From contig NZ_CP069396.1 in NCBI RefSeq assembly GCF_016887565.1, positions 4,739,001 to 4,803,000 of the forward strand: a stretch of 64,000 nt of DNA, read 5' to 3'. This stretch comes from Archangium violaceum (lineage in GTDB: Bacteria > Myxococcota > Myxococcia > Myxococcales > Myxococcaceae). Below, piece by piece: positions 12,186-28,028 of this stretch. Position 1 is the stretch's first letter. Each line of letters starts with the position of its first letter. Below the pieces are notes generated by a model. It searched no databases and was not told the DNA's origin. It worked only from the letters and a program-made list of their open reading frames with translations. The position numbers and the translations under genes were made by a program.

Positions 12186-13019
12186 TCAGACGAGCGACAT
12201 GGTCAGCTGGCTGGCCAGGTATTGCAGGGCGGGCATGACGTTGGGGGCGGAGCGCTTGCGAGCGGGGGGAAGCGCCATCCCCTGCCACGCGGGCTCACCG
12301 ACCAGGCGGCCGGCCGCATGCTGGAAGAGGCGGAAGCGGCCGAGCTCGATGGAGCTGCCCGAGTTGTAGATGCGCAGGCCGCGGCCCTGGAAGCGGCCCA
12401 GATCGAACTCGCGCGGCACGTGGCGGTGGCCGTGGAGGATGAGATCGCACCGGCCCTGGGCCCGGCGGACGAGCTCGGCGCCCAGCGCCAGCTCGGAGGC
12501 GTGCGGCCAGCCCATGCGGGTGGCGAGGCGCTCCGGGAAGCTCTCCTCCGGCAGCGGCAGCACGTGGTGGTGCAGCAGCACCGCGGTGAGCGCGCCCGTC
12601 GGCGCGGCGCACAGGGCCGCGTCCACCTCGTCCAGCACCGCCGGGGTCAGCTCGCCGTGACAGGCGAAGTAGTTGCGGTTGTGCGGGCCCGTGGAGTCCA
12701 CGCACACCAGGTAGAGGCCCTCGTGCCGCTCCACCCGCACCTTCCGGCCGTTCATCCACTGGCCGCCGGCGTCCTCGCCCGTGCGGTCGTGGTTGCCGGG
12801 GATGAAGGAGAGCCGGCCGGCGTCGATCAGCGGCGCGAAGAGCTCGCGGAAGCGCCGGTACTCGCTCCGGCTGCCCTGGTGGGTCAGGTCTCCCGTCACC
12901 ACCACGTGGTCCACGCGCTCGGCGAGGAGGGTCTCCACGAGCGCGCTGGCCGTCGCGTCGCTCTCGCGGGTGAGGTCCAGATGCAGGTCCGACAGATGTG
13001 CCAACTTGCGGATGAGCAT
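12186..13019 (-). CDS. Calcineurin-like metallophosphoesterase
   Basis: 277 aa with the full dinuclear-metal signature: LSDLHLD (residues 9-15), VVVTGDLTHQG, FIPGNHDRTG, HHHVLPLP, and HGHRHVPREF near residue 205. The family hydrolyses phosphomonoesters or phosphodiesters, including cyclic nucleotides and nucleotide adducts. No signal peptide is seen, so it is probably cytoplasmic. An array of Pho-box-like repeats lies 48-87 bp upstream, suggesting induction under phosphate limitation. Confidence 0.9.
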   Translation of the reverse strand: MLIRKLAHLSDLHLDLTRESDATASALVETLLAERVDHVVVTGDLTHQGSRSEYRRFRELFAPLIDAGRLSFIPGNHDRTGEDAGGQWMNGRKVRVERHEGLYLVCVDSTGPHNRNYFACHGELTPAVLDEVDAALCAAPTGALTAVLLHHHVLPLPEESFPERLATRMGWPHASELALGAELVRRAQGRCDLILHGHRHVPREFDLGRFQGRGLRIYNSGSSIELGRFRLFQHAAGRLVGEPAWQGMALPPARKRSAPNVMPALQYLASQLTMSLV

Positions 13020-13066: not shown

Positions 13067-13106
13067 GTGAACCTTTCGGGTGGGGCCGGTGACTTCGCGG
13101 TGAACC
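13067..13106 (-). promoter_or_regulatory. Pho-box-like array upstream of the metallophosphoesterase
   Basis: Plus-strand units start at 13067 (GTGAACC), 13078 (degenerate GGGTGGG), 13089 (GTGACTT) and 13100 (GTGAACC), exactly 11 bp apart. On the sense (minus) strand the good units read as GGTTCAC or AAGTCAC. The pitch and core match the direct-repeat structure of Pho boxes. Binding is inferred. Confidence 0.55.
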
Positions 13107-13108
13107 CG

Positions 13109-14332
13109 TCAGCCGGCGAGCAGCTCCTCGGCGCGCTCGGGCTCGGGCGTGGCCAGGGGCCCCTGCACGGCGGGCGTGGGTGGCACCAGCTTCGAGCCGG
13201 GCAGCACGCGCAGCTTGTTGCCGCGCCAGTCCACCGAGCGCGCGAAGAGTCCGTTGGTCCAGGCCACGAAGAGCAGCAGGTCCTTGAGCAGCACCGCGGG
13301 CACCACCTTCCACGAGGTGGTCTGTTCGGGGCGCGACAGGTGGAAGATGGTCACGTCGTGGACCAGCTTGGCCAGCAGCGCCGCGCCCACCACGCCCAGG
13401 GCCCGCTCCGACGGCGACAGCAGCGCGCCGAGCAGCGCCCAGGGCAGCGGATTGAGCAGCGACTGCGCCAGGTACACCGGCGTGGGGATGCAGGTGTGGT
13501 GGATGATGCTCCAGCGCACGTAGCGCTTGAGGAAGGCCGTCACGCTCTTCTCCCGCGACACGTTGTAGACGGGCGAGCGCGCCACCACGGCCCGCTTGCC
13601 CAGCCGCCGCGTCACCCACCGGCCGATGACGAAGTCCTCCGCCAGCACGTTGCGCACCGAGTAGAAGCCTCCCAGGGACTCCACGTCCTCGCGGCGCAGC
13701 GCCATGGACTTGCCCACCACGATGTCCTGATCCACGGCCTGCTTGGCGGCGATCTGTCCCGCGCCCGTCGTGGTGCTCTGGTACAGGTTGTCCATCAGCG
13801 AGCCCAGCGTCCGCTCGCCCACGCCGCTCACCGGGTGCGAGATGCAACCCACCTCCGGGTCCTCGAAGGTGCGGGAGATCTCCTCCAGGTAGTCCGGCCC
13901 CACGCGCGTGTTGGAGTCGCTGATGACGAGGATGTCGTAGCGGGCCGCGCCCGCCAGGGTGATGAGCTGGTTGACCTTGGGGTTGAGGCCGGGCTCGCCG
14001 TGCTGCAGCTCCAGCCTCATGACGTGCGGCCAGCGCGCCACCGCCGCCCGCGCCACCGCGTAGGCGGGATCCCTCGTGTCCTTCACCCCGAGGATGACCT
14101 CGTAGGCCGGATAATCGAGCGCGGCGAAGCAGGCCAGGTTGGCCTCCAGGTCATCGTCCACGCCACACAGGGGCTTGAGGATGGAGATGCCCTTGGGCTG
14201 GCCACTGGACGCCGGGGAGCCGGCTCGGGGGCGGGTCTGGCGGTAGCGCAGCACACAGAGGAGCTGGGCTCCCAGGGCGACGATTCCGACGACGGCGGCG
14301 GCGAGCAGGGCCAGGCTGAGCGCGTGGAGCAT
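13109..14332 (-). CDS. GT21-type glycosyltransferase, ceramide glucosyltransferase-like
   Basis: 407 aa. An N-terminal membrane segment (residues 3-27) precedes a GT-A domain with KPLCGVDDDLEANL, then VISDSNTRVGPDYL (DxD-like site), NVLAEDFVIGRW (catalytic Asp) and RYVRW, the (Q/R)xxRW motif of processive and ceramide-type transferases. Further hydrophobic segments are at the C-terminus. GT21 enzymes move glucose from UDP-glucose to ceramide, and bacterial relatives act on hopanoids or sphingolipids. It lies directly downstream of phoU on the same strand, with a candidate Pho box in between. HpnI-type hopanoid glycosylation is the main alternative, but no hopanoid genes are nearby. Confidence 0.83.
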   Translation of the reverse strand: MLHALSLALLAAAVVGIVALGAQLLCVLRYRQTRPRAGSPASSGQPKGISILKPLCGVDDDLEANLACFAALDYPAYEVILGVKDTRDPAYAVARAAVARWPHVMRLELQHGEPGLNPKVNQLITLAGAARYDILVISDSNTRVGPDYLEEISRTFEDPEVGCISHPVSGVGERTLGSLMDNLYQSTTTGAGQIAAKQAVDQDIVVGKSMALRREDVESLGGFYSVRNVLAEDFVIGRWVTRRLGKRAVVARSPVYNVSREKSVTAFLKRYVRWSIIHHTCIPTPVYLAQSLLNPLPWALLGALLSPSERALGVVGAALLAKLVHDVTIFHLSRPEQTTSWKVVPAVLLKDLLLFVAWTNGLFARSVDWRGNKLRVLPGSKLVPPTPAVQGPLATPEPERAEELLAG

Positions 14333-14446
14333 GGGGGGCGGGCTTTCTCCTGAGCAGGGGCGCGTTCATCGCGCGTCCTACCCGGGACGTTAGGAAAGCC
14401 CGGCGACTGCCCCGCGACGGTCCCGCGTCACCCGGGAGAACTCTTG

Positions 14447-14464
14447 GTGACGGGACCGTGAACC
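14447..14464 (-). promoter_or_regulatory. Candidate Pho box upstream of the GT21 gene
   Basis: The plus strand reads GTGACGG-GACC-GTGAACC, two 7-bp units at 11-bp pitch, 115-132 bp before the glycosyltransferase start and just after the phoU stop. One unit deviates (GTGAA for GTGAC), so this is the weakest member of the set. Confidence 0.4.
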
Positions 14465-14474
14465 CCTTGCCCGC

Positions 14475-15167
14475 TCAGGACGTGGTCGTCAGGTTGCGGC
14501 TGCGCGGGTGGCGGATGTCCGTGCCGCGCACCATGTAGATGACCATCTCCGCCACGTTGGTGGCGTGGTCACCGATGCGCTCGAGGTGCTTGGCGATGAA
14601 CATCAGCGCCGTGGCACGGCGGATGTTCCTCGAGTCCTCCATCATGTAGCCGAGCAGCTCGTTGAAGATCTTCAGGTAGAGGACGTCCAGGTGGTCGTCC
14701 TCCTTGCGCACCTCTTCGGCCTTGACCGGGTCCGAGGACACGAAGGCATCCAACGCCTTCTTCACCTGCTGCTGGGCCAGCTCGGCCAGCCGCGGCGTGT
14801 CCACGTAGGCCTTGAGCGGTGGCGCCTCGTTCAGATCCTTGGCCCGCTCGGCGATGTTCACCGCCAGGTCGCCGATGCGCTCCAGGTCGGTGACGATCTT
14901 CAGCGCGGTGGTGATGAGGCGCAGATCGCTCGCGGCCGGCTGGCGCAGCGCGAGGATGCGGCGGCACGTCTCGTCCACCTCCACCTCCAGGCGGTTGACC
15001 TCCTTGTCCGCCTGGATGACCTTCTCGGCGAGCGCGGAGTCCCGCTCGGTGAGCGCGCGCACGCTGTCGGCGATGTGCGCCTCCACCTTGGCGCCCATGC
15101 CCAGCAGCTTCTCGCGCAGATCCCTCAGGTCCGCTTCGAACGCCTTGTCCGTATGCGTCGATGGCAT
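14475..15167 (-). CDS. phoU: Phosphate-signalling accessory protein PhoU
   Basis: 230 aa, all-helical, made of two repeated PhoU domains. Each repeat carries an acidic metal-binding motif, ALKIVTDLERIGDLAVNIAE in the first and AKHLERIGDHATNVAEM in the second. PhoU links the Pst transporter to the PhoR kinase and keeps the regulon off when phosphate is plentiful. It is the last gene of the pst operon, 17 bp after pstB. Confidence 0.97.
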   Translation of the reverse strand: MPSTHTDKAFEADLRDLREKLLGMGAKVEAHIADSVRALTERDSALAEKVIQADKEVNRLEVEVDETCRRILALRQPAASDLRLITTALKIVTDLERIGDLAVNIAERAKDLNEAPPLKAYVDTPRLAELAQQQVKKALDAFVSSDPVKAEEVRKEDDHLDVLYLKIFNELLGYMMEDSRNIRRATALMFIAKHLERIGDHATNVAEMVIYMVRGTDIRHPRSRNLTTTS

Positions 15168-15184: not shown

Positions 15185-15964
15185 CTACCCGAACTTCCCG
15201 GTGACGTAGTCCTCGGTGCGCTTCTCACGAGGGTTGGTGAAGATCTGCTCGGTGGGACCGCATTCCACCAGCTCGCCCATGTAGAAGAAGGCCGTGCGAT
15301 CGCTCACCCGCGCCGCCTGCTGCATGCTGTGCGTGACGATGGCGATGGTGTAGCGCTCCTTCAGCTCGTGGATGAGCTCCTCGATCTTCGCCGTGGCGAT
15401 GGGATCCAACGCGCTGGCGGGCTCGTCCATGAGCAGCACCTCGGGCTCGATGGCCAGGGCGCGCGCGATGCACAGACGCTGCTGCTGGCCGCCGGACAGG
15501 CTCAGGGCGCTGTCGTTGAGCCGGTCCTTCACCTCGTCCCAGAGGGCCGCTCCCTTGAGCGACTTCTCCACGCGCGCGGCGATCTCCGCCTTGTCCTTCA
15601 TCCCGCCCACGCGCAGGCCGTAGGCCACGTTCTCGAAGATCGTCTTCGGGAAGGGGTTGGACTTCTGGAAGACCATGCCCACGCGGCGGCGCAGATCCAC
15701 CACGTCCACGTTGCGGTCATGGATGCTCGTGCCGTCCAGCAGCACGGTGCCCTCGTGGCTGGCGCCCGGGATGAGATCGTTCATCCGGTTGAGCGAGCGC
15801 AGGAAGGTGGACTTGCCGCAGCCGGACGGGCCGATGAGCGCCGTCACCTGGTGCTCGGGGAGGGTGAGGCTCACCGCCTTCACCGCCACCTTGGGGCCGT
15901 AGCGGAGGGTGAGCGCGCGCGCCTCCATCTTGACGCGCGAGGGAGCAGCGGGAGAGAGGGGCAT
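15185..15964 (-). CDS. pstB: Phosphate ABC transporter ATP-binding protein PstB
   Basis: 259 aa. Walker A is GPSGCGKST, the signature is [16 protein letters not shown], Walker B is [14 protein letters not shown], and the switch His is in [12 protein letters not shown]. Length and motifs match PstB, which energises phosphate import through PstC and PstA. The start used gives a 13-residue extension before [11 protein letters not shown]; that internal Met is an alternative start. It follows pstA by 9 bp. Confidence 0.97.
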
Positions 15965-15973
15965 GGCTCGGTG

Positions 15974-16885
15974 TCAGTGGGACGCGGAGGCGCGCCGGCG
16001 GGTGCGGGCGCGGATGAGCACCGCGACGAGGTTGAGGGCGAAGGTGAGCGCGAGCAGCACCAGCACCGTGGCGTACAACAAGGGTTGGGTGGCCTCCACA
16101 TCCGGGGACTGCGTGGCCAGCACGTAGGTGTGGTAGCCCAGGTGCATGAACTGGGAGTTGAACTTGTTGGGCAGGTCGGGGAGGAAGTAGGCGGCGCCGG
16201 TGAAGAGGATGGGCGCCACCTCGCCCGCGCCGCGGGACACCGCCAGCACGGCGCCGGTGAGGATGCCCGGCAGCGCGCCCGGCAGCACCACCCGCGCCAG
16301 CGTCTGGGACCGGGTGGCCCCCAGCGCCAGGCTCGCCGTGCGGTGGTCCATCGGCACCGCGCGCAGCGCCTCCTCGGTGGAGACGATGACCACCGGCAGC
16401 GTCAGTACCGCCAGGGTGAGCGAGGCCCAGAGGATGCCCGGCTGGCCCCAGTGCAACTCCTGGTAGCCCAGCAGCCGGTCCATGCTCCCGCCCACGAAGT
16501 GGATGAAGAAGCCGAGGCCGAACAACCCGAAGACGATGGACGGCACGCCGGCCAGGTTGACCACCGCCAGCCGCACGGCTCGCGCCAGGAGCGAGCTGGG
16601 GGGCGCGTACTCGTGCAGGTACACCGCCGTGAGCACACCCACCGGCATCACCGCGAGCGTCATCAGCAGGGTGAGCGCCGCGGTGCCGTAGAGGGCGGGG
16701 AAGATGCCGCCGCCCATCATGCCGTCGGAGGGCGGCTCGCTGAGGAACCGCCAGTTGACGTGCCCGAGGCCGCCCCGCGCCACGTCGAAGAGGATGATGG
16801 CCAGGATGGCCACGATGAGCAGCGCGGCGAAGCCGGTGAGGGACGTGAGCGCTCCGCCCACGGCCCGGCGCATGGTGTGCTTCAC
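15974..16885 (-). CDS. pstA: Phosphate ABC transporter permease PstA
   Basis: 303 aa with six hydrophobic segments and the permease EAA-type loop (TASLALGATRSQTLARVVLP). The GTG start chosen overlaps the pstC stop as GTGA, which suggests translational coupling; an ATG four codons inside (MRRAVGGAL) would also serve. An open frame continues further upstream but reads antisense-like residues inside pstC. It forms the inner-membrane channel with PstC. Confidence 0.94.
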   Translation of the reverse strand: MKHTMRRAVGGALTSLTGFAALLIVAILAIILFDVARGGLGHVNWRFLSEPPSDGMMGGGIFPALYGTAALTLLMTLAVMPVGVLTAVYLHEYAPPSSLLARAVRLAVVNLAGVPSIVFGLFGLGFFIHFVGGSMDRLLGYQELHWGQPGILWASLTLAVLTLPVVIVSTEEALRAVPMDHRTASLALGATRSQTLARVVLPGALPGILTGAVLAVSRGAGEVAPILFTGAAYFLPDLPNKFNSQFMHLGYHTYVLATQSPDVEATQPLLYATVLVLLALTFALNLVAVLIRARTRRRASASH

Positions 16886-17898
16886 GCTCCCGCTCCCGAC
16901 AGCCGCTTGAGGACGCGGCGTGTCCAGACGTTCGCCAACATGTTGAGGACGAAGGTGAAGATGAAGAGCTCGACTCCGATGAAGAACAGGAGCGAGTAGT
17001 GCGGGCTGCCCACCACCACCTCGCCCATCTCCGCGGCGATGGTGGCGGACATGGAGCGCACCGAGTCCGCGAAGTTCCACGACACGATGGCCGCGTTGCC
17101 CGAGGCCATCAGGACGATCATCGTCTCACCGATGGCGCGGCCGAAGCCCAGCACGCACGCGGCGAGGATGCCCGGGGCCGCCGCCGGCAGGACCACCTTC
17201 CAGGCCGTCTCCCAGGGCGTGGCGCCCAGCGCGAGCGACGCCTCGCGGTAGCTGCGCGGCACCGCGGTGAGCGCGTCCTCGGCCACGGTGAAGACGACGG
17301 GGACGATCGCCAGCGACAGGCCCAGCCCCGCGACGACCGCGTTGAGCCGGGAGGTGAGGCCGAAGGTGTCCTGGAGGAAGGTGGCCAGCACCATCAGGGC
17401 GAAGAAGCCCAGCACCACCGAGGGAATGCCCGCCAGCAGCTCGATGGTGGGCTTGAGGATCTCCCGCAGCCGCCGGGGCGCGAACTCGGCCGCGAACAGC
17501 GCGCCCGCCACGCCCACCGGCACCGCCACCACCATGGACACCAGCGTCGTCTTCAGCGTGCCGATGAAGAGCGGAATCATGCTCACCTTCGGTACCGAGG
17601 ACACCGGCTGCCACACGAAGGTGGCCGGCTTGCCGGCGCGCACCACCTGCGGCAGGAACATCTTCCCCAGGCTGGCCTCCTCGCGGGCGTGGGCGTCCAG
17701 GAAGATCGCCAGCGCCTCCTTCGCGATGAAGACGAGGATGAGCACCAGCGCCGCGATCCCCGTGAAGGCCATGGCCGTGATGAAGCCAGCGATGACCTTC
17801 TCCCGGATCTGCCTCCGCCGGGCGACGGAGGAGAGCCGCGGCGCCACGGGTACCGTCTCCACGAGCCCCTCACTCTGCATGGCTGCTTGTCTATCCAC
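16882..17898 (-). CDS. pstC: Phosphate ABC transporter permease PstC
   Basis: 338 aa. A ~40-residue cytoplasmic head precedes six membrane segments; a long periplasmic insert (residues 65-105) follows the first segment, as is usual for PstC. The coupling loop is YREASLALGATPWETAWKVV. It is translationally coupled to pstA. A well-formed Pho-box pair lies in the 52-bp gap after pstS, suggesting an internal promoter for pstCAB-phoU. Confidence 0.95.
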   Translation of the reverse strand: MDRQAAMQSEGLVETVPVAPRLSSVARRRQIREKVIAGFITAMAFTGIAALVLILVFIAKEALAIFLDAHAREEASLGKMFLPQVVRAGKPATFVWQPVSSVPKVSMIPLFIGTLKTTLVSMVVAVPVGVAGALFAAEFAPRRLREILKPTIELLAGIPSVVLGFFALMVLATFLQDTFGLTSRLNAVVAGLGLSLAIVPVVFTVAEDALTAVPRSYREASLALGATPWETAWKVVLPAAAPGILAACVLGFGRAIGETMIVLMASGNAAIVSWNFADSVRSMSATIAAEMGEVVVGSPHYSLLFFIGVELFIFTFVLNMLANVWTRRVLKRLSGAGA

Positions 17899-17916: not shown

Positions 17917-17934
17917 GTGACAATCTCGTGACGC
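17917..17934 (-). promoter_or_regulatory. Pho box upstream of pstC
   Basis: On the sense strand it reads GCGTCAC-GAGA-TTGTCAC, two direct 7-bp repeats separated by 4 bp, 19-36 bp before the pstC ATG. This matches the architecture of the enterobacterial Pho box (two CTGTCAT-like units at 11-bp pitch). Confidence 0.6.
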
Positions 17935-17950: not shown

Positions 17951-18772
17951 CTACTTCACCGGGAAGTAGCCGACCTTGGTGACGAGCGCCTGGCCCTCGG
18001 GGGACAGGACGTAGTCGATGAAGGTCTTGGCATCCGCGGCCGGCTTGTTGCGCAGGTAGAAGTAGAGGTCGCGCGAGAGCGGGTACTTGCCGCTCTTGAT
18101 GTTCTCCGCGCTGGGGGCGATGGCCTCGTTGCCCTTCTTGATCTTCAGCTCCTTGATGCCCTTGGCGTAGGCGGCGCCGCCGTAGCCGATGCCGTTCTTC
18201 TCCTTGGACACCGCGTTCACCACCGCGGCCGTGCCGGGCAGCGTCTGGGCGCTGGAGGTGTAGTCATCCCCGTTGAGCAGGTTGTCCTTCACGAACACGT
18301 AGGTGCCCGAGGAGTTCTCGCGCGAGTAGACGATGATGGGGGCGTCCGGGCCGCCCACTTCCTTCCAGTTGGTGATGTCGCCCAGGTAGATGCCCTTGAG
18401 CTGCTCCTGGGTGAGGGCGTCCAGCGGGTTGTTCTCGTTGACGTAGAAGGTGACGCCGTCCTTGGCCACGGAGATCTCCGTGCCGGTGGTGTTGAAGCGG
18501 GTGCGCAGCTTCTCGCCCTCCGCCTCCTTCATGGGGCGGCTGGACATGGCGATGTCCGTGGTGCCGTTGATGAGCGCCGACAGGCCGACGCCCGAGCCGC
18601 CACCCGTCACCTGCAGCTTGATGGTGGGGTTCTTCTTCATGAACTCCTCGGCCCAGCGCTGGCCGAGGATGACCATGGTGTCGGAGCCCTTGACGGTGAT
18701 GGTACCCGCGCGAGCCGCGCCCGGGAGGGCGAGCAGCAGCACCGCGGCGATCGAGGCGATGAAGTTCTTCAT
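17951..18772 (-). CDS. pstS: Periplasmic phosphate-binding protein PstS
   Basis: 273 aa with a signal peptide (AAVLLLALPGAARA). The mature protein starts TITVKGSDTM, the phosphate-binding loop, with GGGSGVGLSALINGTTDIA and YSRENSSGTY completing the site. It captures phosphate for the PstCAB channel. A good ribosome-binding site (AAGGAGAC) precedes the ATG, and the gene follows the porin gene by 43 bp, so they may be co-transcribed. Confidence 0.96.
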   Translation of the reverse strand: MKNFIASIAAVLLLALPGAARAGTITVKGSDTMVILGQRWAEEFMKKNPTIKLQVTGGGSGVGLSALINGTTDIAMSSRPMKEAEGEKLRTRFNTTGTEISVAKDGVTFYVNENNPLDALTQEQLKGIYLGDITNWKEVGGPDAPIIVYSRENSSGTYVFVKDNLLNGDDYTSSAQTLPGTAAVVNAVSKEKNGIGYGGAAYAKGIKELKIKKGNEAIAPSAENIKSGKYPLSRDLYFYLRNKPAADAKTFIDYVLSPEGQALVTKVGYFPVK

Positions 18773-18815: not shown

Positions 18816-20054
18816 CTAGAAGCGGGCCTGCAACTGGGCGGTGAGCACGTTGTCGCGCGGGTCCTTCACGCCCGAGACGGTCGCCGTCATGGGGTGCTCG
18901 TAGGTGGCGGAGAGCTTCAGGTTCTCACCGAAGTAGTGGACGACGGTAGCGCCGATGGTGCCGACGGCGTTGGTGCCGGCCGGGCGATCCGAGCCCTCGG
19001 AGGCGGCGGCGGCCGGGACACCGCTGGCCGCGTCGAAGTAGTCGTAGCGCACGGCCACCGCGTCGTGCAGGCCGATGTTCTGCACCAGCAGCACGTACCA
19101 GCCGCTGGCCTGGCGGTCGAGCAGCTCGGCGCCATTGCTCACGTACGTCTTGCCCTTGATGTACTCACCCTTGAGGGCGGTGGCGCCGACGGGCAGGAAG
19201 TCCAGGTAGACCTGGAGGTCCGCGCCGACGCGGCTGCGCTCGTGGGCGTGCCGGTACGTCTCACCGGCACCCCTGCCCATCGTGTGGCCGTACCAGCCGG
19301 AGACGCCGCCGGAGATCCACTTCGCATCGAACCCGGCGCGGCCGACGAAGTCCTTCTCCTTGTCGTTGTCGACGCCGACGGAGCCCGGGTAGCTCATGCC
19401 GTTGCCGTCGAAGAGGCCGATGCCCAGGCGGAAGACGCCGAACTTGCCGGCGTACTTGACGCCGCGGTCGCGCTCGTCGGGGAGGAAGGCCCGGACGACG
19501 CGGGTGCGCTCGGGGAACTCGCGGTCGCTGGAGGACTGCACGGACTCGTAGCCGAACGGCCACTTCAGCTGGCCCAGCGTCACCGACATGTTCTGCTTCG
19601 TGCCGGGGATGAAGAGCGTGGCCTCCGCGTCGCGGACCGTCACGCCGGTGGGGACCGCGTCGATCTGCAGCATGTACTGCACGAGATCGCCGGTGTAGGT
19701 GGCCTTGATCCGGCCGCGGCGCACCAGGAAGCGGCTGTAGCCGCCGGTGCCGTCCTCGCGCGACTCCTCCCACTGGTAGCGGGCCTGCACGTAGCCGGAG
19801 AACTTCAGCTTCGTGAGCGGGGAGAGGATGCCCTTGATCTCGATCAGCTGCTCCTCGATGGAGGCGACCTTGCCCTCGGCGTTGGTCATCCGCTCGTCGG
19901 GGCTCGGCGAGGCGGGGGCGGCTTCCGAGGCGGGGGCGGCTTCCGAGGCGGGGGTGGCTTCCGAGGCGGGGGCGGTCTCGGGAGCGGGAGTGGCCTCCTG
20001 GGCCAGGGCGGCGCCAGAGGCGAAGGTCAACATCGCGGCAATCAGGTTGCGCAT
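18816..20054 (-). CDS. Phosphate-selective porin, OprO/OprP-like
   Basis: 412 aa. A signal peptide (MRNLIAAMLTFASGAALA) is followed by an Ala/Pro/Glu-rich repeat segment (residues 20-50), a short coiled-coil stretch (NAEGKVASIEEQLIEIKGIL), then a barrel of the OprO/OprP type (FSGYVQARYQW, RRGRIKATYTGD, VTLGQLKWPFGYE) ending in Phe. Such porins admit phosphate or pyrophosphate through the outer membrane. Its position just upstream of pstS and behind a Pho-box pair supports that role. Trimer formation is inferred from the family. Confidence 0.87.
   Translation of the reverse strand: MRNLIAAMLTFASGAALAQEATPAPETAPASEATPASEAAPASEAAPASPSPDERMTNAEGKVASIEEQLIEIKGILSPLTKLKFSGYVQARYQWEESREDGTGGYSRFLVRRGRIKATYTGDLVQYMLQIDAVPTGVTVRDAEATLFIPGTKQNMSVTLGQLKWPFGYESVQSSSDREFPERTRVVRAFLPDERDRGVKYAGKFGVFRLGIGLFDGNGMSYPGSVGVDNDKEKDFVGRAGFDAKWISGGVSGWYGHTMGRGAGETYRHAHERSRVGADLQVYLDFLPVGATALKGEYIKGKTYVSNGAELLDRQASGWYVLLVQNIGLHDAVAVRYDYFDAASGVPAAAASEGSDRPAGTNAVGTIGATVVHYFGENLKLSATYEHPMTATVSGVKDPRDNVLTAQLQARF
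19903..19992 (-). repeat. 18-bp tandem repeat inside the porin gene
   Basis: About five copies of an 18-bp unit (plus strand GCTTCCGAGGCGGGGGCG), three of them near-identical (19921, 19939, 19957), with degenerate flanking copies. It encodes a six-residue unit like ASEAAP in the periplasmic linker. Copy number is likely to vary between strains. Confidence 0.85.
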
Positions 20055-20145: not shown

Positions 20146-20163
20146 GTGACAATTGGGTAACGA
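20146..20163 (-). promoter_or_regulatory. Pho box upstream of the porin/pstS unit
   Basis: The sense strand reads TCGTTAC-CCAA-TTGTCAC at the 11-bp pitch, 92-109 bp before the porin ATG and just past the stop of the regulator gene. The first unit has one change (GTTAC for GTCAC). Confidence 0.5.
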
Positions 20164-20168
20164 CGGGC

Positions 20169-20858
20169 TCAGACCGTGTTCGGGTCGACGATGCGGTAGC
20201 CCACGCCGCGCACCGTCTCGAGGTAGGCACGCGCGGAGCCGAGCTTGTCGCGCAGGCGCATGACATGGGTGTCGATGGTGCGCGTCTCCAGGGAGCTGGA
20301 CAGGCCCCAGACCTCCTCGAGCAGCTGCTCGCGGGACTGCACGCGGCCCACGCGGGCCATGAGGTGCTCCAACAGGCGGAACTCGAGCGCGGTGAGGATG
20401 ACCTCCTTGCCCTCCACGTAGAAGCGGTGGGCGGAGATGTCGAGCGCGAGGGGGCCCAGCTTGAGGGGCGCGGAGTCGTCGCGCGCGGGGCCGCTGCGGC
20501 GCAGGATGGCCTTGAGGCGCAGGACGAGCTCGCGGACGCTGAAGGGCTTGGTGACGTAGTCGTCGGCGCCCACCTCGAAGCCGCGCACGCGGTCGGCCTC
20601 CTCTCCCTTGGCGGTGAGCATGACGATGAGGACGTCACGGGTGTTGGCGGCGGCACGCAGCTGGCGGCAGACCTCCACGCCGGAGATGTCCGGCAACATC
20701 AAATCCAGGAGGACCAGATCCATCCGCTGCTCGCGCGCGGCGGTGAGCGCTGCCTCGCCCGTGGGCGCGACGCGGGTGGAGAAGCCAGCGGCTCGGAGAT
20801 TGAAATCGATGAGCTCGGCGAGATCGCGCTCGTCGTCGACGATGAGGACGTGGGGCAT
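20169..20858 (-). CDS. OmpR/PhoB-family response regulator (orphan, next to the pst operon)
   Basis: 229 aa from the ATG giving MPHVLIVDDERDLAEL. The receiver domain has LVLLDLMLPDISG (phospho-Asp), VMLTAKGEE and YVTKPFSVREL; a winged-helix DNA-binding domain follows (ALEFRLLEHLMAR, TIDTHVMRLRDKLG, VRGVGYRI). No kinase gene is adjacent. Position between sixA and the porin/pst genes, plus its own Pho-box array, suggests it controls or joins the phosphate response. It is about as similar to PhoB as the regulator at 25095-25775. M. xanthus is known to have an orphan PhoP-type regulator beside its pst operon; this may be its counterpart. Confidence 0.93.
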   Translation of the reverse strand: MPHVLIVDDERDLAELIDFNLRAAGFSTRVAPTGEAALTAAREQRMDLVLLDLMLPDISGVEVCRQLRAAANTRDVLIVMLTAKGEEADRVRGFEVGADDYVTKPFSVRELVLRLKAILRRSGPARDDSAPLKLGPLALDISAHRFYVEGKEVILTALEFRLLEHLMARVGRVQSREQLLEEVWGLSSSLETRTIDTHVMRLRDKLGSARAYLETVRGVGYRIVDPNTV

Positions 20859-20895
20859 GGCGGCGCGCACTCTGGACACCGCCGTTTGCGTTCTG

Positions 20896-20924
20896 GTGAC
20901 GCGTCTGCGACAAGTACGTGACAT
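20896..20924 (-). promoter_or_regulatory. Triple Pho-box array upstream of the orphan PhoB-like gene
   Basis: Sense-strand units ATGTCAC, TTGTCGC and GCGTCAC are separated by 4 bp each, three direct repeats at exact 11-bp pitch, 38-66 bp before the ATG. It is the most complete array in the window and suggests autoregulation. Confidence 0.65.
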
Positions 20925-20927
20925 CAC

Positions 20928-22760: not shown

Positions 22761-23705
22761 TCAGCCGTCCAGGTCCGTCACGGTGGACAGGGGCAGGGGC
22801 CCGTCCTCGGTGGACGGGGGGTGGCCTTCATCGCCCACCGCCTGCTTCAAGAGCGGAGGCGTCACCACCGGCAGCTCGATGGTGGGGGTGTGGGTGATGG
22901 CGGAGGAGCCGGGGGGCGGGCGCAGCACCGGGCCGGGGGGCGGCAGGCCCGAGTGACGGCGCGCCGCCTCCATCAGTGCGTGGTGGTGGCGGTAGCGCGC
23001 CTCGACGAGCTTGTGGATGAGCAGGGGTCCGCCGGGGACGCGGCGCGCGGTGAGGGCCTGGGTGGCCTTGCGCACCGGGTAGCGCACGCGGCGGATCTGC
23101 ACGCGCCAGCCCTTGGGCGTGAAGGTGAAGACGCCGTAGGCGGGGCGGAGATCTCCATCCCGGGGGATGCCGGCGCTGGCTACGTCCGCGATGAGGAGCC
23201 GGCCCACGCGGCGGCGGTAGGGGAAGTGCAGGTGGCCGAAGGCACACGCGGCCGCGTCCAGGTTCTGGAAGTAGCGGCGGATGGTGTTCTCGTCCAGCGT
23301 GGGGTCCAGCGAGTCCTCGAGGTTGCGCGGGTTGGCGTGGCAGACGAAGAGGTCCTGCCCCTTGCGCGGCGAGTAGCGCACCGAGAAGGGCATGGCCCCC
23401 AGGCGCTTGAGCCACGGCTCCCCGAGCTGATCCCTCGTCCACTGGAGCAGCTCCGTCTTCCAGTGGTCGCGCTCGCGGTAGGCCCCGCCCAGGTAGTGAC
23501 CGGCGAGGTAGCAGTCGGTGTTGCCCATGAGGACCGCGTCACAGCGATCGAAGAGCAGCTCCACCGTCTCGCGCGGGTGCGCGCCGCGAAGGGCGAGGTC
23601 TCCGGCGGCCACGACGTAGTCGGGCGCGACGCGGGCGATGTCCTCGAGGACGGCCTCGCAGGCGGGGAGGTTCCCGTGAATGTCGGCGAGGATGGCGACC
23701 CGCAT
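22761..23705 (-). CDS. Metallophosphoesterase of the phoB-phoR operon
   Basis: 314 aa. ILADIHGNLPA (residues 4-14), AAGDLALRG, LMGNTDCY, VCHANPRN and FGHLHFPY are the calcineurin-like metal motifs in order, in the short arrangement typical of YfcE-like enzymes. After about residue 235 a basic, then proline-rich tail has no recognisable fold. It starts 12 bp after the phoR stop, so it is probably the third gene of a phoB-phoR operon. The substrate is unknown. Confidence 0.88.
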   Translation of the reverse strand: MRVAILADIHGNLPACEAVLEDIARVAPDYVVAAGDLALRGAHPRETVELLFDRCDAVLMGNTDCYLAGHYLGGAYRERDHWKTELLQWTRDQLGEPWLKRLGAMPFSVRYSPRKGQDLFVCHANPRNLEDSLDPTLDENTIRRYFQNLDAAACAFGHLHFPYRRRVGRLLIADVASAGIPRDGDLRPAYGVFTFTPKGWRVQIRRVRYPVRKATQALTARRVPGGPLLIHKLVEARYRHHHALMEAARRHSGLPPPGPVLRPPPGSSAITHTPTIELPVVTPPLLKQAVGDEGHPPSTEDGPLPLSTVTDLDG

Positions 23706-23717
23706 GGCCGCCCCATC

Positions 23718-25082
23718 CTAACCCGCCGCCGTCGCCGTGGGCACAGACACTGGAAGGAAAATCGTGAAGGTAGAGCCCTCGTTCGGCTGGCTCTCGACCT
23801 TCACCTCGCCCCCCATGGCGCTCAGCAGGTGCTTGACGATGGACAGGCCCAGGCCCGTACCCCCCATGTCCCGGCTGCGTCCCTTGTCTACCCGGTAGAA
23901 GCGCTCGAAGATGCGGGCCAGGTGCTTGGGCTCGATGCCCACCCCGGTGTCCCGGACGTGCACCACGCACCGCCCGTCCTCCTGGCTGGCCGTCACGAAC
24001 ACCCGGCCCCCCTCGGGCGTGTACTTCACCGCGTTGTCCAGCAGGTTGAGCAGCACCTGCTCCAGCCCTCGCTCGTCTCCTCGCCCCACCAGCCCCTGGG
24101 GGACGTTCAGTTCGAGCGTAATGTTCTTGCCCTGCGCCTTGGGCCGGACCACCTCGGCCGCCCGGGAGGCGGCCACCGCCAGCGGCACGTCCGTCACCTT
24201 CAGCGTCACCTCGCGGGACTCCAGCCGGGACAGCTCCAGCAGGTCCTCGACGAGCTCCGAGAGGCGCTCGGACTGGCGGTGGATGATGTCCACCATCTTG
24301 GGCGCCACGTTGGGGTCCTTCAGGGCGCCGCCCTGGAGCGTCTCGGCGTAGCCACGGATGGCGGTGATGGGGGTGCGCAGCTCGTGGGAGACGTTGGCGA
24401 CGAAGTCCTTGCGCACCTTCTCCAGGTGGCGCAGCTCGGTGACGTCGTGGAAGACGGCGGCGCTGCCGGGCAGGTCCTTCCCCAGCGGGGTCACCCGGAT
24501 GGCGAGCGTGCGGGGGAAGAGGCCCTCCAGTGCCAGCTCGAGGCGGGTGGAGGCCCCCTCGCGGCAGGCGCGGGTGACGGCCTCGTTGAGCACGTCGTTG
24601 CGCAGCAGCGCGAGGGGACGCTGGCCGACGATGTGCCCGGCCGTCTGGAGCATGCCGCGCAGGGCGTCGTTGTGGCGCACCACGGTGCCCTCGGCGTCTG
24701 TCACCCAGAGGCCCTCGGCCATGCCGTCCAGCACGGCGGTGAGGATGCGGGCCTCCTGGTCGAGCCCGGCGTTGCGCACGGAGAGCTGGTGGTGGAGCGA
24801 GTCGATGGCGCCCTTCAGGTTCGCTACCTCCTCGAGCCGGTCGTTCTCGTCCTCGCTGCTACCCGGGGAGGGGGAGCCCTCGGCGCGGGTGCGGACCTGG
24901 CGGGCCAGGGTGAGGATCTGCCGCTTGAGCGCGTCCCGGCTGGCCACCAGCGTCAGCGCGGAGGCGGTGAGGGTGGCGAGCGACACGTAGACGGCGTCCA
25001 TCCTCCAGCCCAGCAGCAGGAAGAGGATGAGCGCCGCCAGGGCGGGCAGGAGGAGGGGAAGCAGGAAGAGGCGCGGGGGCAT
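23718..25082 (-). CDS. phoR: Phosphate-type sensor histidine kinase PhoR
   Basis: 454 aa. Two close N-terminal membrane segments (residues 3-50) with almost no periplasmic loop are followed by a PAS domain (~115-215), HisKA with VSHELRTPITAIRGY (phospho-His) and an ATPase domain (NLLDNAVKYTPEGG, DTGVGI, GGTGLGLSIVKHL). The lack of an external sensor and the presence of PAS match PhoR, which senses phosphate through PstSCAB/PhoU. It follows phoB by 12 bp. Confidence 0.93.
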   Translation of the reverse strand: MPPRLFLLPLLLPALAALILFLLLGWRMDAVYVSLATLTASALTLVASRDALKRQILTLARQVRTRAEGSPSPGSSEDENDRLEEVANLKGAIDSLHHQLSVRNAGLDQEARILTAVLDGMAEGLWVTDAEGTVVRHNDALRGMLQTAGHIVGQRPLALLRNDVLNEAVTRACREGASTRLELALEGLFPRTLAIRVTPLGKDLPGSAAVFHDVTELRHLEKVRKDFVANVSHELRTPITAIRGYAETLQGGALKDPNVAPKMVDIIHRQSERLSELVEDLLELSRLESREVTLKVTDVPLAVAASRAAEVVRPKAQGKNITLELNVPQGLVGRGDERGLEQVLLNLLDNAVKYTPEGGRVFVTASQEDGRCVVHVRDTGVGIEPKHLARIFERFYRVDKGRSRDMGGTGLGLSIVKHLLSAMGGEVKVESQPNEGSTFTIFLPVSVPTATAAG

Positions 25083-25094
25083 CGGGCCGTACCG

Positions 25095-25775
25095 TCAGGG
25101 AGGGCTGAGCTTGTAGCCCACGCCGCGGACCGTCTCGATGATGTCGCCCGCGGGGCCGAGCTTCTCGCGCAGGCGCTTGATGTGCGTGTCCACCGTGCGG
25201 GTGTGGATCTCCGCCTGGATGCCCCAGACGTCGGAGAGGAGCACCTCGCGCGTCTGCACGCGATCGCCGCGCTCCAGCAGGGTGCGCAGCAGGCGGAACT
25301 CCAGCGCGGTGAGGACCACCTCCTGGCCCTTCACCCGCACCTGGTGGCGCGAGGTGTCGAGCTGGATCTCCCCGGCGGACAGCTGGGCCGAGGGCCCCTC
25401 CTCGACGTCCGCGCGCCGCAGCACCGCCCGGACCCGCAGCATCAGCTCGCGGACGGAGAAGGGCTTCACCACGTAGTCGTCCGCGCCCTGCTCCAGGCCC
25501 TGGATGCGGTCGGACTCCTGGCCCTTGGCGCTGACGATGATGACCGGCACCTTGCGCAGCTCGGAGTCGCTCTTGAGCAGGCGCAGCACCTCGCTGCCCG
25601 CCAGGTCCGGCAGCATCAGGTCCAACAGGACGAGGTCAGGCACATGGGCGCGGGCCTTCGCGAGACCACTCGCTCCGGTGCCCGCTGCCTCCGCCTCGAA
25701 TCCCGCGGCCCGGAGGTTGTACTCCACCAGTCCCGCCAGGTCCTGCTCGTCCTCGATGATCAGGATGCGCGCCAT
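25095..25775 (-). CDS. phoB: Phosphate regulon response regulator PhoB
   Basis: 226 aa. Receiver: ILIIEDEQDLAGL, LVLLDLMLPDLAG (phospho-Asp), IIVSAKGQE, YVVKPFSVREL. Winged-helix output: TALEFRLLRTLLERG, RTVDTHIKRLREKLG, VRGVGYKL. It is paired with phoR. The ATG giving MARILIIED is used; a longer frame exists upstream but would run through the Pho-box region. DNA-binding residues resemble those of the orphan regulator at 20169-20858, so the two may share target sites. Confidence 0.93.
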   Translation of the reverse strand: MARILIIEDEQDLAGLVEYNLRAAGFEAEAAGTGASGLAKARAHVPDLVLLDLMLPDLAGSEVLRLLKSDSELRKVPVIIVSAKGQESDRIQGLEQGADDYVVKPFSVRELMLRVRAVLRRADVEEGPSAQLSAGEIQLDTSRHQVRVKGQEVVLTALEFRLLRTLLERGDRVQTREVLLSDVWGIQAEIHTRTVDTHIKRLREKLGPAGDIIETVRGVGYKLSPP

Positions 25776-25845
25776 CGTTCCTCTCGAACCCCAGATTCTT
25801 TCCCGTGCCCTAGCAGATCGACCGTGGCGGGTGCATGACGAGGAT

Positions 25846-25863
25846 GTGACGCCTGGGTGACAA
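25846..25863 (-). promoter_or_regulatory. Pho box upstream of phoB-phoR
   Basis: The sense strand reads TTGTCAC-CCAG-GCGTCAC, 71-88 bp before the phoB ATG. Both units have an intact GTCAC core at 11-bp pitch, suggesting autoregulation. Confidence 0.6.
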
Positions 25864-25889
25864 GGCGTGTCCGCCCGCCCGGCGGCCAC

Positions 25890-26390
25890 TCAGGGGGCGA
25901 AGGTTGGATCGCACTCGCCATTGGTGAGGGAGATGGCGGCGGCGATGAGCGGCTCGTTGCGGGTGGCGCTCACGGATTCCAGGTAGTTGCAGGAGCTGCC
26001 CAGGAATCGCGGCGGGTTGGAGCGCGAGAGCGCTTCGATGACGACGACGTAGTCGCGGCCCACCGGGATGTCCACGGTCAGCTCCTGGGCACCGCCCTGG
26101 AGCCCCACGTCGAAGCGCAGGGCGCGCGCCTTCTTGCCATCCGGCCCCTGGAGGACGAGCGCCTCCTCTTGTTCCACCTGCTGGTTGAGGCAGGAGCGCT
26201 GGAGGTCGCCGCACCGGCGCGACCGGCCTTCGGGGAGCACCACCACCTGGAAGGCACCCAGCTCATCGGCGACGGCCCGATCGATGAGCACGTCCAGGCC
26301 GAGCCGGGCTCCGGACGAGGGAGGTTCCGCCCCGCAGCCGGCGGCGAGGGTGGCACCCAGCAGGACGAGGAGGGAGGGACGCGAGCTCAT
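25890..26390 (-). CDS. Lipoprotein of unknown function
   Basis: 166 aa with a lipoprotein signal (LGATLAAGCGAE). The mature part has three cysteines in the pattern RRCGDLQRSC plus one in SSCNYLES, and a likely beta-sandwich (ELTVDIPVGRDYVVVIEAL). No named family is recognised. Its ATG overlaps the stop of the preceding gene by 4 nt, so the two are coupled and may act together in the envelope. Confidence 0.72.
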   Translation of the reverse strand: MSSRPSLLVLLGATLAAGCGAEPPSSGARLGLDVLIDRAVADELGAFQVVVLPEGRSRRCGDLQRSCLNQQVEQEEALVLQGPDGKKARALRFDVGLQGGAQELTVDIPVGRDYVVVIEALSRSNPPRFLGSSCNYLESVSATRNEPLIAAAISLTNGECDPTFAP

Positions 26391-27289
26391 GGATTGACGC
26401 GGATGGTGATGGGGACGCGGCCCCGTTCCTCGGAAGTGGCATAGACGACGGCGCCGGCGGTGCCCGCCACGGCCACCGCGCCCACGGCCACCCAGAGCCA
26501 CGGGCTCTTGTACCAGGGACGCTCGCCCACGGGGGCCACCGCCGTGCCTTCCTGGGCCACCTGGAAGACGAGCGGGTTGAAGGTATCGCCCCGGCCCGCC
26601 AGCCGGCGCTGCGCCGCGTCCACCACCTCGAAGTAGTACTCCACCTGATAGGCGGTGCGGGCGGCGGGCAGCTCGTAGGCGGGGATGGTGGCGACGTAGC
26701 GCTCCTTGTCGGCCCGGTCACGAGCGAAGTCCACCGAGCTGTACGCCTGGGCCCCGGCGCGCCGGTAGAAGAGCCGGGCCCGCGCCCCGAGCGCCATGTC
26801 CTCGATGCGCGCCACGGCGACCACCGGCTCGCCTCCGGCCACATCGGGCAGAGGGTCCACCTGGAGCGTGACGGGGCGGACCCGGCGGTTCTTGATGTCC
26901 TCCTTGATGCGCGCGTAGAGCTGGCGGATCTTCGGAGGCGCGGTGCGCGGCAGCTCGTAGTCGGGCCGGGCCTGGAGGAGCATCTCGTAGGCCTCGCGTG
27001 CCCGCGCCTCGTCGCCCAGGTAGAGGGCGGTCAGGCCGAGCAGGCGGTAGAGCTCCACGAGCTGGTCGTCGGTGACGTCCGGCGCGTCGAGGCCGGACTC
27101 CAGCGTCTTCACCGCCTCCTCGAACTCGCCGTTCTCGATCTGCTCCTGCGCGCGGGCGATCTCCGGCCGGGCGGGGGCCACCTGGAAGAGGAGGGGAGGT
27201 GGGAACAGGGGGCGGGCGAGCGAGGCGCCGGGCGACAGCAGGCTCGCCAGGAGCAGGCCCGCCACCAGGCGATTCAGCGAGGGGTACAT
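26387..27289 (-). CDS. TPR-containing envelope protein
   Basis: 300 aa from the ATG giving MYPSLNRLVAG. It has a signal peptide, a TPR-like region (AQEQIENGEFEEAVKTLESG ... LYRLLGLTALYLGDEARAREA), a beta-rich middle and a C-terminal membrane segment (WLWVAVGAVAVAGTAGAVVY), a frequent layout in myxobacterial envelope proteins. Longer frames upstream read through the intergenic region and are not believed. A Pho-box pair lies 60-77 bp before the start; the coupled downstream gene encodes a lipoprotein. Confidence 0.78.
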   Translation of the reverse strand: MYPSLNRLVAGLLLASLLSPGASLARPLFPPPLLFQVAPARPEIARAQEQIENGEFEEAVKTLESGLDAPDVTDDQLVELYRLLGLTALYLGDEARAREAYEMLLQARPDYELPRTAPPKIRQLYARIKEDIKNRRVRPVTLQVDPLPDVAGGEPVVAVARIEDMALGARARLFYRRAGAQAYSSVDFARDRADKERYVATIPAYELPAARTAYQVEYYFEVVDAAQRRLAGRGDTFNPLVFQVAQEGTAVAPVGERPWYKSPWLWVAVGAVAVAGTAGAVVYATSEERGRVPITIRVNP

Positions 27290-27348
27290 TGGCACCCACC
27301 CTAGCAGACGGCCGAGCGGGCCTCCAATGAGAGGACGGTCCCGCAACG

Positions 27349-27366
27349 GTGACGGGCCGGTGACAT
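27349..27366 (-). promoter_or_regulatory. Pho box between the TPR gene and yceD
   Basis: The sense strand for the TPR gene reads ATGTCAC-CGGC-CCGTCAC, two intact GTCAC cores at 11-bp pitch. The divergent yceD promoter starts 20 bp further on, so the TPR/lipoprotein unit is the likelier target. Confidence 0.55.
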
Positions 27367-27385
27367 CTATTGGAGTTCGGACGCG

Positions 27386-27414
27386 TTGACTGCGGGGGAG
27401 CACCTCCCCATGAT
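27386..27414 (+). promoter_or_regulatory. Sigma70-like promoter of yceD
   Basis: TTGACT, a 17-bp spacer and CATGAT, ending 32 bp before the ATG. The spacer contains a GGGGAG/CTCCCC dyad. Confidence 0.5.
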
Positions 27415-27446
27415 GCGCGCCCCTTTTTGGATAGGAAGCCAGGTAG

Positions 27447-28028
27447 ATGCTCGTAAAGATTGAAGAAATTCGCGACGAAGGGCTCAAGATCAATGATCGG
27501 ATGAGCCTGGAGCTGCTCGAGGCCGCGCTCGAGGGCTCTGGCTTCCGGGCCACCGAGCCCCTGGCCTTCTCGGCGAACTTCCGCAAGGTGAGTGGCGGCG
27601 TGCTGCTCGAGGGCAAGTTCACCGAGCGCGTGGTGGCGGAGTGCAAGCGCTGCCTCACGGAGTCGAAGCTGGAGCTGCCGGTGAGCTTCACCCTCAACCT
27701 CGTGCCCGAGTCGCTCGCCCGTGGCACGGACGTGTTGGACGAGGACGAGGTGGAGGAGAAGGAGCGGAACCAGGGAGAGACCGGCGGCTCGTTCGCCATC
27801 GATGACGCGGACGAGGAGGTGTTCGACGGCAAGGTGATCGATCTGGATCCCATCATCCGGGAGCAGGCGCTGCTGGCCCTGCCGATGAGCGCCGTGTGCC
27901 GCGAGGACTGTCAGGGGCTGTGCACGCAGTGCGGCCAGAACCTCAACGAGAAGCAGTGCGGTTGCGACACGAAGTTCGTGGATCCCCGACTCGCGGTGCT
28001 CAAGAACATCAAGCTCCAGAAGAGCTGA
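27447..28028 (+). CDS. yceD: YceD/DUF177 family protein
   Basis: 193 aa. An N-terminal beta domain with ECKRCL is followed by an acidic stretch (DEDEVEEKE) and a C-terminal cysteine cluster (CREDCQGLCTQCGQNLN) diagnostic of the family. YceD proteins take part in 23S rRNA processing and are normally encoded just before rpmF. Here rpmF lies 3.2 kb away on the other strand, and a hairpin follows this gene directly. Confidence 0.93.
   Translation: MLVKIEEIRDEGLKINDRMSLELLEAALEGSGFRATEPLAFSANFRKVSGGVLLEGKFTERVVAECKRCLTESKLELPVSFTLNLVPESLARGTDVLDEDEVEEKERNQGETGGSFAIDDADEEVFDGKVIDLDPIIREQALLALPMSAVCREDCQGLCTQCGQNLNEKQCGCDTKFVDPRLAVLKNIKLQKS

Follow-up and report, generated by a model that had tools for sequence, protein, structure and literature searches.

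Phosphate-controlled glycosylation of ceramide is already described in bacteria. In Caulobacter crescentus, ceramide is glycosylated by Sgt1/Sgt2 under PhoB control (PMC6445935). These two enzymes are reported to add hexuronate and then hexose, whereas the locus considered here has a single gene of glycosyltransferase (GT) family 21 (GT21) beside phoU. It lies in the window, a 64,000-nucleotide (nt) stretch of the 13.2-Mb single-contig genome of the soil myxobacterium Archangium violaceum (Myxococcota; contig NZ_CP069396.1, positions 4,739,001 to 4,803,000). The main text of the Caulobacter paper has zero occurrences of GT21 (PMC6445935); by analogy, the system proposed here would work like that of Caulobacter with a different enzyme. 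Bacterial ceramide glycosyltransferases named in the consulted parts of the literature are either Sgt1/2 or GT4 enzymes (PMC6445935, PMC9692976). The latter (e.g. B. fragilis BF9343_3149 and Z. mobilis GlcAT) likewise place a sugar onto ceramide; they are described as retaining GT-B enzymes, one of which makes alpha-galactosylceramide (PMC9692976). The window GT is predicted to be a GT-A enzyme, so that its family and mechanism would differ from theirs.

GT21 itself holds enzymes with several acceptors. One is the eukaryotic ceramide glucosyltransferase UGCG (PDB 26qf, which we take to be this enzyme); it is not known to be regulated by phosphate. Another is HpnI, the best NCBIfam match of the window GT. 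The family is also reported to include diacylglycerol (DAG) enzymes such as rhizobial Pgt (PMC8231724). Among the matches listed in searches of the open-licence literature, no description was found of a bacterial GT21 ceramide enzyme or of phosphate-controlled glycolipids in myxobacteria.

The best explanation of the locus, which we hold to be moderately probable, is a Pho-switched GT21 enzyme that glycosylates ceramide. Its computed support consists of the gene, the fold, synteny, a conserved repeat, co-occurrence with serine palmitoyltransferase (SPT) and separation from HpnI. The gene lies on the minus strand at 13109..14332 and encodes a membrane protein of 407 residues, a putative Pho-controlled ceramide glycosyltransferase; the 428-residue open reading frame (ORF) on the plus strand at 13067-14353 is its antisense. 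Membership in GT21 is clear (PF13506, 140 bits; cut-off 21.7), and of the nine PF13506 matches in the whole genome it ranks first (143 bits versus 64 for the second). GT21 enzymes carry the motifs D..D..D and (Q/R)xxRW; here D88, D139, D233, R270, R273 and W274 are invariant across 45 aligned sequences.

The link to phosphate is strongly supported at the level of sequence: gene order and a Pho-type repeat are both conserved, and the cluster includes PhoB- and PhoR-like genes. An earlier note on this DNA had placed the gene directly downstream of phoU, with a candidate Pho box and a tie to the phosphate system; the position and the repeat are borne out. The span it gave (13067-14464) takes in the GT and the repeat on each side of it. 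phoU (14475..15167, minus strand; TIGR02135, 238.8 bits, cut-off 130) directly precedes the GT on the same strand in 32/32 family-level loci; 49 genomes of the family reach 480 bits for the GT, and these 32 are the ones examined. In a wider set that includes distant relatives and contig ends (L106-L161), the distance from the end of phoU to the GT is 79-174 nt in 22 of 56 loci. Between the two genes, 13 nt past phoU, stands an exact TCAC-N7-TCAC repeat (14447..14461, minus strand; TCACGGTCCCGTCAC), which, set against the E. coli consensus, we take to be a PhoB-box-like direct repeat of 11 bp.

This Pho-type repeat upstream of the GT is conserved: it is exact in 27 of the 32 family loci and has at most one mismatch in all 32. 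Spacers of 3-6 and 8-15 give zero exact matches on either strand of the same loci, and 300 shuffles give a mean of 0.007 exact repeats. Most exact copies (24/27) begin at -125 to -127 or at -81/-82 from the GT start, and the spacer varies. Since the 32 rows share ancestry, the repeat is to be read as a footprint and not as 32 independent events. Across the genome, TTCACN7TCAC occurs 58 times, versus 19 for the reversed control; its chance expectation in the 142-nt phoU-GT gap is about 3e-4 on one strand.

The acceptor is approached through gene co-occurrence. SPT was searched with NF047600 (curated cut-off 640 bits) and called by score, because no match passed that cut-off. In 146 Myxococcota genomes (GT from 300 bits, SPT from 400 bits), 62 have both genes, 7 the GT only, 7 SPT only and 70 neither; SPT is thus present in 62/69 genomes with the GT versus 7/77 without it. 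SPT scores in the GT-bearing genomes split cleanly (at least 463 bits or at most 331). Six genomes without the GT at 373-395 bits (G003, G006, G013, G021, G031, G042) were taken as lacking SPT, and including them gives 13/77; G056, whose GT is fragmentary (229 bits), was taken as lacking the GT. Within the window's own family, SPT is present in 49/49 genomes whose GT reaches 480 bits. Counted by hand per genus, SPT occurs in 16/21 versus 6/57, with genus g30, mixed for SPT, taken as lacking it.

The association recurs in Nitrospirota (148 genomes), where SPT is present in 27/28 genomes with a GT of at least 400 bits versus 27/120 without (p 1.5e-13). The SPT cut is effectively 557 bits here; G197 (428 bits, a fragment), G166 and G176 (407-409 bits), all without the GT, were taken as lacking SPT. 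The GT clade is found in Myxococcota, Nitrospirota, Ignavibacteriota, Zixibacteria and Acidobacteriota. SPT of at least 509 bits is present in 15 of the 19 searched other-phyla genomes with the clade (19 of the 24 loci L162-L185 entered the search; L165, L166, L170, L179 and L180 did not). Good orthologues are rare among 199 Acidobacteriota genomes: SPT, counted from 425 bits up, occurs in 7/7 with a GT of at least 185 bits versus 37/192. Acidobacteriota was set aside as a third supporting phylum, since the 185-bit cut was picked post hoc and no association is seen at 140 bits or more (p 0.64).

HpnH, which is needed to supply the hopanoid acceptor of HpnI, behaves differently. It shows no association with the GT in Myxococcota (5/69 versus 7/77, p 0.77) and is present in 2/28 GT-bearing versus 65/120 other Nitrospirota genomes. 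Ten Nitrospirota genomes carry a weak HpnI-like GT21 (141-203 bits), two of them alongside the strong GT; all ten have HpnH, which lies about 2 kb from the weak gene in G158, G254 and G279.

The genome of the window has, by best PDB match, the SPT expected of a ceramide-making host. This gene (L101:7932-9473, 513 residues) matches PDB serine palmitoyltransferase entries (8guh, 3a2b) at 401 bits, with the next kind at 298, and reaches 517 bits on NF047600. Next to it lies a gene that matches GNAT acetyltransferases (28 bits), conceivably a ceramide synthase. MlaC-like and outer-membrane efflux genes lie nearby on the opposite strand (L101:4409-9473). The SPT region (6.553-6.571 Mb) contains none of the genome's 58 TTCACN7TCAC copies. 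SPT is also recorded in M. xanthus, S. aurantiaca and S. cellulosum (PMC9386255).

Sequence comparison separates the enzyme from HpnI more readily than it identifies an acceptor. On the HpnI model TIGR03472, the window GT scores 231 bits (cut-off 310) and eight other members of its wider clade 238-274; HpnI of Mycetohabitans and Paraburkholderia scores 452-456, and alphaproteobacterial GT21 proteins encoded beside LpxH-like genes score 183-200. BLASTP identity is 31% to HpnI and 25-28% to alphaproteobacterial GT21. In trees, Myxococcota GTs, together with Nitrospirota-type GTs when included, form one clade that excludes HpnI and alphaproteobacterial GT21 (support 90/88 in the first tree and 97/95 in the second). 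The first tree, built with 12 of the 30 closely related loci L009-L038 and without fragment L088, has 51/52 Myxococcota rows in the clade, with the long-branched L078 outside. The second used 27 hand-chosen Myxococcota rows, and rows longer than 440 residues were trimmed to the last 430.

Clade members share the motif residues NPK, DSN, GK and LAED. HpnI and HpnI-like rows have N-L/R-K, DSD and mostly LADD; alphaproteobacterial GT21 rows have NPK, DSN (one DAN), GK and AED. The eukaryotic enzyme in the PDB shares NPK, AED and RxxRW with the window GT but has DSG and GMS in place of the DSN and GK of the bacterial clade. To judge from the alignment, these residues argue against HpnI and give no choice between ceramide and DAG. 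The only PDB sequences matched by the window GT at E <= 0.01 are named ceramide glucosyltransferase (111.5 bits, E 4e-31, residues 5-286). In phmmer comparisons with the same enzyme, a Nitrospirota member scores 150 bits, a distant Myxococcota member 140, HpnI 89 and an HpnI-like protein 82.5; of the six bacterial GT21s in this comparison, none comes closer to the solved enzyme than the SPT-linked Nitrospirota member. This similarity does not decide the acceptor, because HpnI and alphaproteobacterial GT21 match the enzyme too. The AlphaFold2 model (predicted local distance difference test 93.2, 45 sequences) has an N-terminal helix, a mixed alpha/beta domain and C-terminal helices. Its best fold matches are PcManGT (Z 24.0, root-mean-square deviation 4.0, 312 aligned), hyaluronan synthase (Z 22.9) and cellulose synthase (Z 21.5); solved ceramide glucosyltransferase chains were absent among the fold matches listed (entries released up to 8 April 2026). 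The modelled fold appears to be GT-A and says nothing on the acceptor.

Several observations weigh against ceramide as the acceptor. No SPT match exceeds 640 bits in any phylum searched (0/146 Myxococcota, 0/148 Nitrospirota, 0/199 Acidobacteriota), and the co-occurrence counts ignore kinship among genomes. Seven GT-bearing Myxococcota genomes lack SPT (G066, G068, G080, G082, G112, G119, G141); two of these assemblies, G066 and G082, consist of one contig each and are 99-100% complete. NPK, DSN, GK and LAED are retained in every one of the seven GTs. These GTs sit among SPT-bearing rows in the tree, which leaves two readings: a switch to another acceptor after loss of SPT, or a promiscuous clade. 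One of the 28 GT-bearing Nitrospirota genomes (G157) also lacks SPT, and SPT occurs without the GT in seven Myxococcota and 27 Nitrospirota genomes. SPT is present in 7/10 Nitrospirota genomes with the weak HpnI-like GT21 so that its presence does not single out the strong GT; the two GT types separate cleanly by HpnH and only in part by SPT. As for the protein itself, HpnI is the NCBIfam model that it matches best, at a score below the cut-off; its DSN, GK and AED residues are common to the alphaproteobacterial group; and its likeness to ceramide glucosyltransferase is moderate, with an alphaproteobacterial GT21 beside a PlcP-like gene scoring 120.9 bits.

The earlier note had called the enzyme ceramide-type. 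Its GT21 membership stands, but membership cannot carry that label, because HpnI and alphaproteobacterial GT21 match the same models and are comparably distant (25-31% identity). What speaks for ceramide is SPT co-occurrence in two phyla, the SPT of the own genome and the lack of HpnH; the seven Myxococcota genomes without SPT speak against it. On this balance of genomic evidence, ceramide would be the best-supported acceptor, at somewhat better than even chances.

DAG is the main rival acceptor, although an unlikely one. The window GT would then be a Pho-controlled DAG glycosyltransferase like rhizobial Pgt, the neighbouring metallophosphoesterase would release DAG as a phospholipase C, for the GT to convert into a glycoglycerolipid; we rate this whole scheme as doubtful. 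Rhizobial GT21 Pgts are reported to produce glycosyl-DAG (PMC8231724), and PlcP beside a glycosyltransferase (Agt) is a known Pho-controlled arrangement (PMC4796936). An LpxH-like gene stands directly before GT21 in Fuscovulum, Gemmobacter and Pannonibacter. The GT often has a metallophosphoesterase gene beside it, some genomes have the GT and no SPT, and the motif residues are common to the clade and the alphaproteobacterial group. DAG use, however, does not predict that GT presence tracks SPT in two phyla. The PlcP-linked alphaproteobacterial GT21, which may correspond to rhizobial Pgt, resembles the window GT in family, metallophosphoesterase neighbour and Pho-type setting; it differs in belonging to a separate clade (25-28% identity) and in having an LpxH-like phosphoesterase, which that of the window is not recognisably.

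Alphaproteobacterial plasmid GT21s labelled "ceramide glucosyltransferase" directly follow LpxH-like phosphoesterase genes (L079:5039-7005, L080:5120-7041, L081:5036-7077); the label is probably a generic transfer.

The metallophosphoesterase itself (12186..13019, minus strand; calcineurin-like, PF00149, 66.5 bits) adjoins the GT in 21 of the 32 family loci and is near it in many farther ones, some of which have no pst genes. BLASTP against PlcP-like proteins, so called from position and LpxH-like family alone, gave nothing better than E 0.08, which may count against the DAG scheme; an identification as PlcP was set aside as unproven. One PlcP-like query had no match in the own genome at E <= 0.1, in a search without positive control. 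The PDB relatives of the phosphoesterase are Rv0805 and similar proteins, matched weakly (E 2e-4), and a plasmid search with it as query gave no match. By analogy with PlcP and Agt, one may guess that it is a lipid-headgroup phosphodiesterase supplying the GT.

It is distinctly improbable that the GT of this Pho cluster acts on another isoprenoid or a surface lipid, its link to SPT being an inherited lineage signal. The seven Myxococcota genomes with the GT and no SPT, the many with SPT and no GT, the kinship of the genomes and the presence of SPT beside HpnI-like GT21 in 7/10 Nitrospirota genomes would fit such a signal, but the association recurs in Nitrospirota, where SPT occurs in 54/148 genomes overall and in 27/28 with the GT. 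An HpnI-like enzyme using bacteriohopanetetrol is very improbable: despite GT21 membership, the best NCBIfam match and the 31% identity, HpnI was rejected on the sub-cut-off score, the absence of DSD and LADD, the separate clade and a best HpnH match of 48.5 bits in the own genome (cut-off 225), with HpnH in just 5/69 GT-bearing Myxococcota genomes.

Under the favoured reading of a Pho-switched ceramide glycosyltransferase, we infer the acceptor, the sugar, the induction and the role of the phosphoesterase as follows. The GT21 product would be an inverting inner-membrane enzyme that moves one sugar onto ceramide. The donor would most likely be UDP-glucose and the product a phosphorus-free glycosylceramide; an inverting GT-A enzyme would yield a beta linkage. 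At low phosphate, a PhoB-type regulator bound to the conserved upstream repeat would turn on the GT along with pst-phoU. Ceramide would come from the resident SPT route encoded elsewhere; this route has no copy of the strict box and may run constitutively, with only the capping step phosphate-gated. The adjacent metallophosphoesterase may release ceramide (or DAG) from phosphate-bearing lipids for the GT. By analogy with Caulobacter and other species, glycosylceramides may replace phospholipids. Together, this suggests that phosphate-starved myxobacteria make sugar-capped, phosphorus-free membrane lipids.

The surrounding cluster lies entirely on the minus strand. In order of transcription, it begins with a PhoB-like response regulator (25095..25889; TIGR02154, 245 bits, below the cut-off of 296), whose true start is probably near 25775 because the model match starts at residue 40. 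A PhoR/PnpS-like sensor kinase follows (23718..25082; PnpS model 389.5 bits, cut-off 400; PhoR 306, cut-off 334), and then come a second metallophosphoesterase directly downstream of it (22761-23705; PF00149, 54.7 bits), further ORFs and the other PhoB-like regulator (20169..20927; TIGR02154, 254 bits, below the same cut-off). The phosphate-selective porin O/P-like gene (18816..20054; PF07396, 32.7 bits) is followed by pstS (17951..18772; TIGR02136, 248.6 bits), pstC (16882..17898; TIGR02138, 245.5 bits), pstA (15974..17080; TIGR00974, 247 bits) and pstB (15185..15964; TIGR00972, 407.5 bits), before phoU, the GT21 gene and the metallophosphoesterase at 12186-13019. The pstA ORF overlaps pstC, so that its true start is probably lower.

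Further Pho-box-like repeats are found in the same cluster and on the same strand. They stand upstream of the adjacent metallophosphoesterase gene (13089..13103, exact), of pstC (17917..17931, exact) and of the porin-pst genes (20146..20160, one mismatch), and at the phoB-phoR pair (25846..25860, exact), there inside the listed ORF and upstream of its likely true start. The window holds five exact TCAC-N7-TCAC copies, all on the minus strand; the fifth (27349-27363) falls within an ORF without clear family (26387-27856) and is probably due to chance. A Pho box ahead of the phosphoesterase was rejected as a general feature, being exact in just 5/33 loci (own clade, L009-L013).

Relatives of the locus show other neighbours. 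In the Nitrospirota-type loci (L162-L185; e.g. L169:1993-5248, L183:1938-5209, L184:1949-5158), a PHP-domain cluster gene occurs in 15/24 and a GH1 glycosidase cluster gene in 11/24, each cluster being named from one representative; the pairing of a glycosidase with a glycosyltransferase suggests that the two turn over one glycolipid. In L169, the next genes are pstS and two members of a cluster that also contains a pst-permease-like ORF. One GT21 relative has a polyphosphate kinase gene in its vicinity (L054:2842-5055), and the cluster of this kinase gene recurs in L066 and L069. The contig BNCN01000006.1 (L116, titled Comamonas sp. KCTC 72670) has a Myxococcus-like pst-phoU-GT locus with 63% identity; the title looks misassigned.

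Field data touch the same groups. Glycosylceramides in serpentinite fluids are read as a response to phosphate limitation; the reported correlates include Acidobacteria and Ignavibacteria for 1G-ceramides and Thermodesulfovibrionia for both glycosphingolipid classes (PMC10667739). Bacterial glycosylceramides are also reported from the Black Sea, and no synthase turned up in the searched portions of the serpentinite and Black Sea papers. The GT clade is present in members of groups correlated with glycosylceramides, an agreement that is suggestive only.

Joined together, these lines allow a broader and more tentative proposal, which we think somewhat less likely than its opposite. The bacterial GT21 clade of five phyla would consist of glucosylceramide synthases, homologues of the eukaryotic enzyme, and would explain the glycosylceramides of phosphate-poor waters; in Myxococcaceae, it would serve to exchange headgroups under a PhoB switch: the phosphoesterase would remove the heads of phosphate-bearing sphingolipids, and the GT would put a sugar on the ceramide left behind. 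If true, this GT21 clade, whose presence goes with SPT in more than one phylum, would offer a gene marker for bacterial glycosylceramides, and a bacterial relative would stand beside the human glucosylceramide enzyme. Lipids matter for myxobacterial development and predation; in these bacteria, if the reading is true, sphingolipid headgroups would be tied to phosphate supply.

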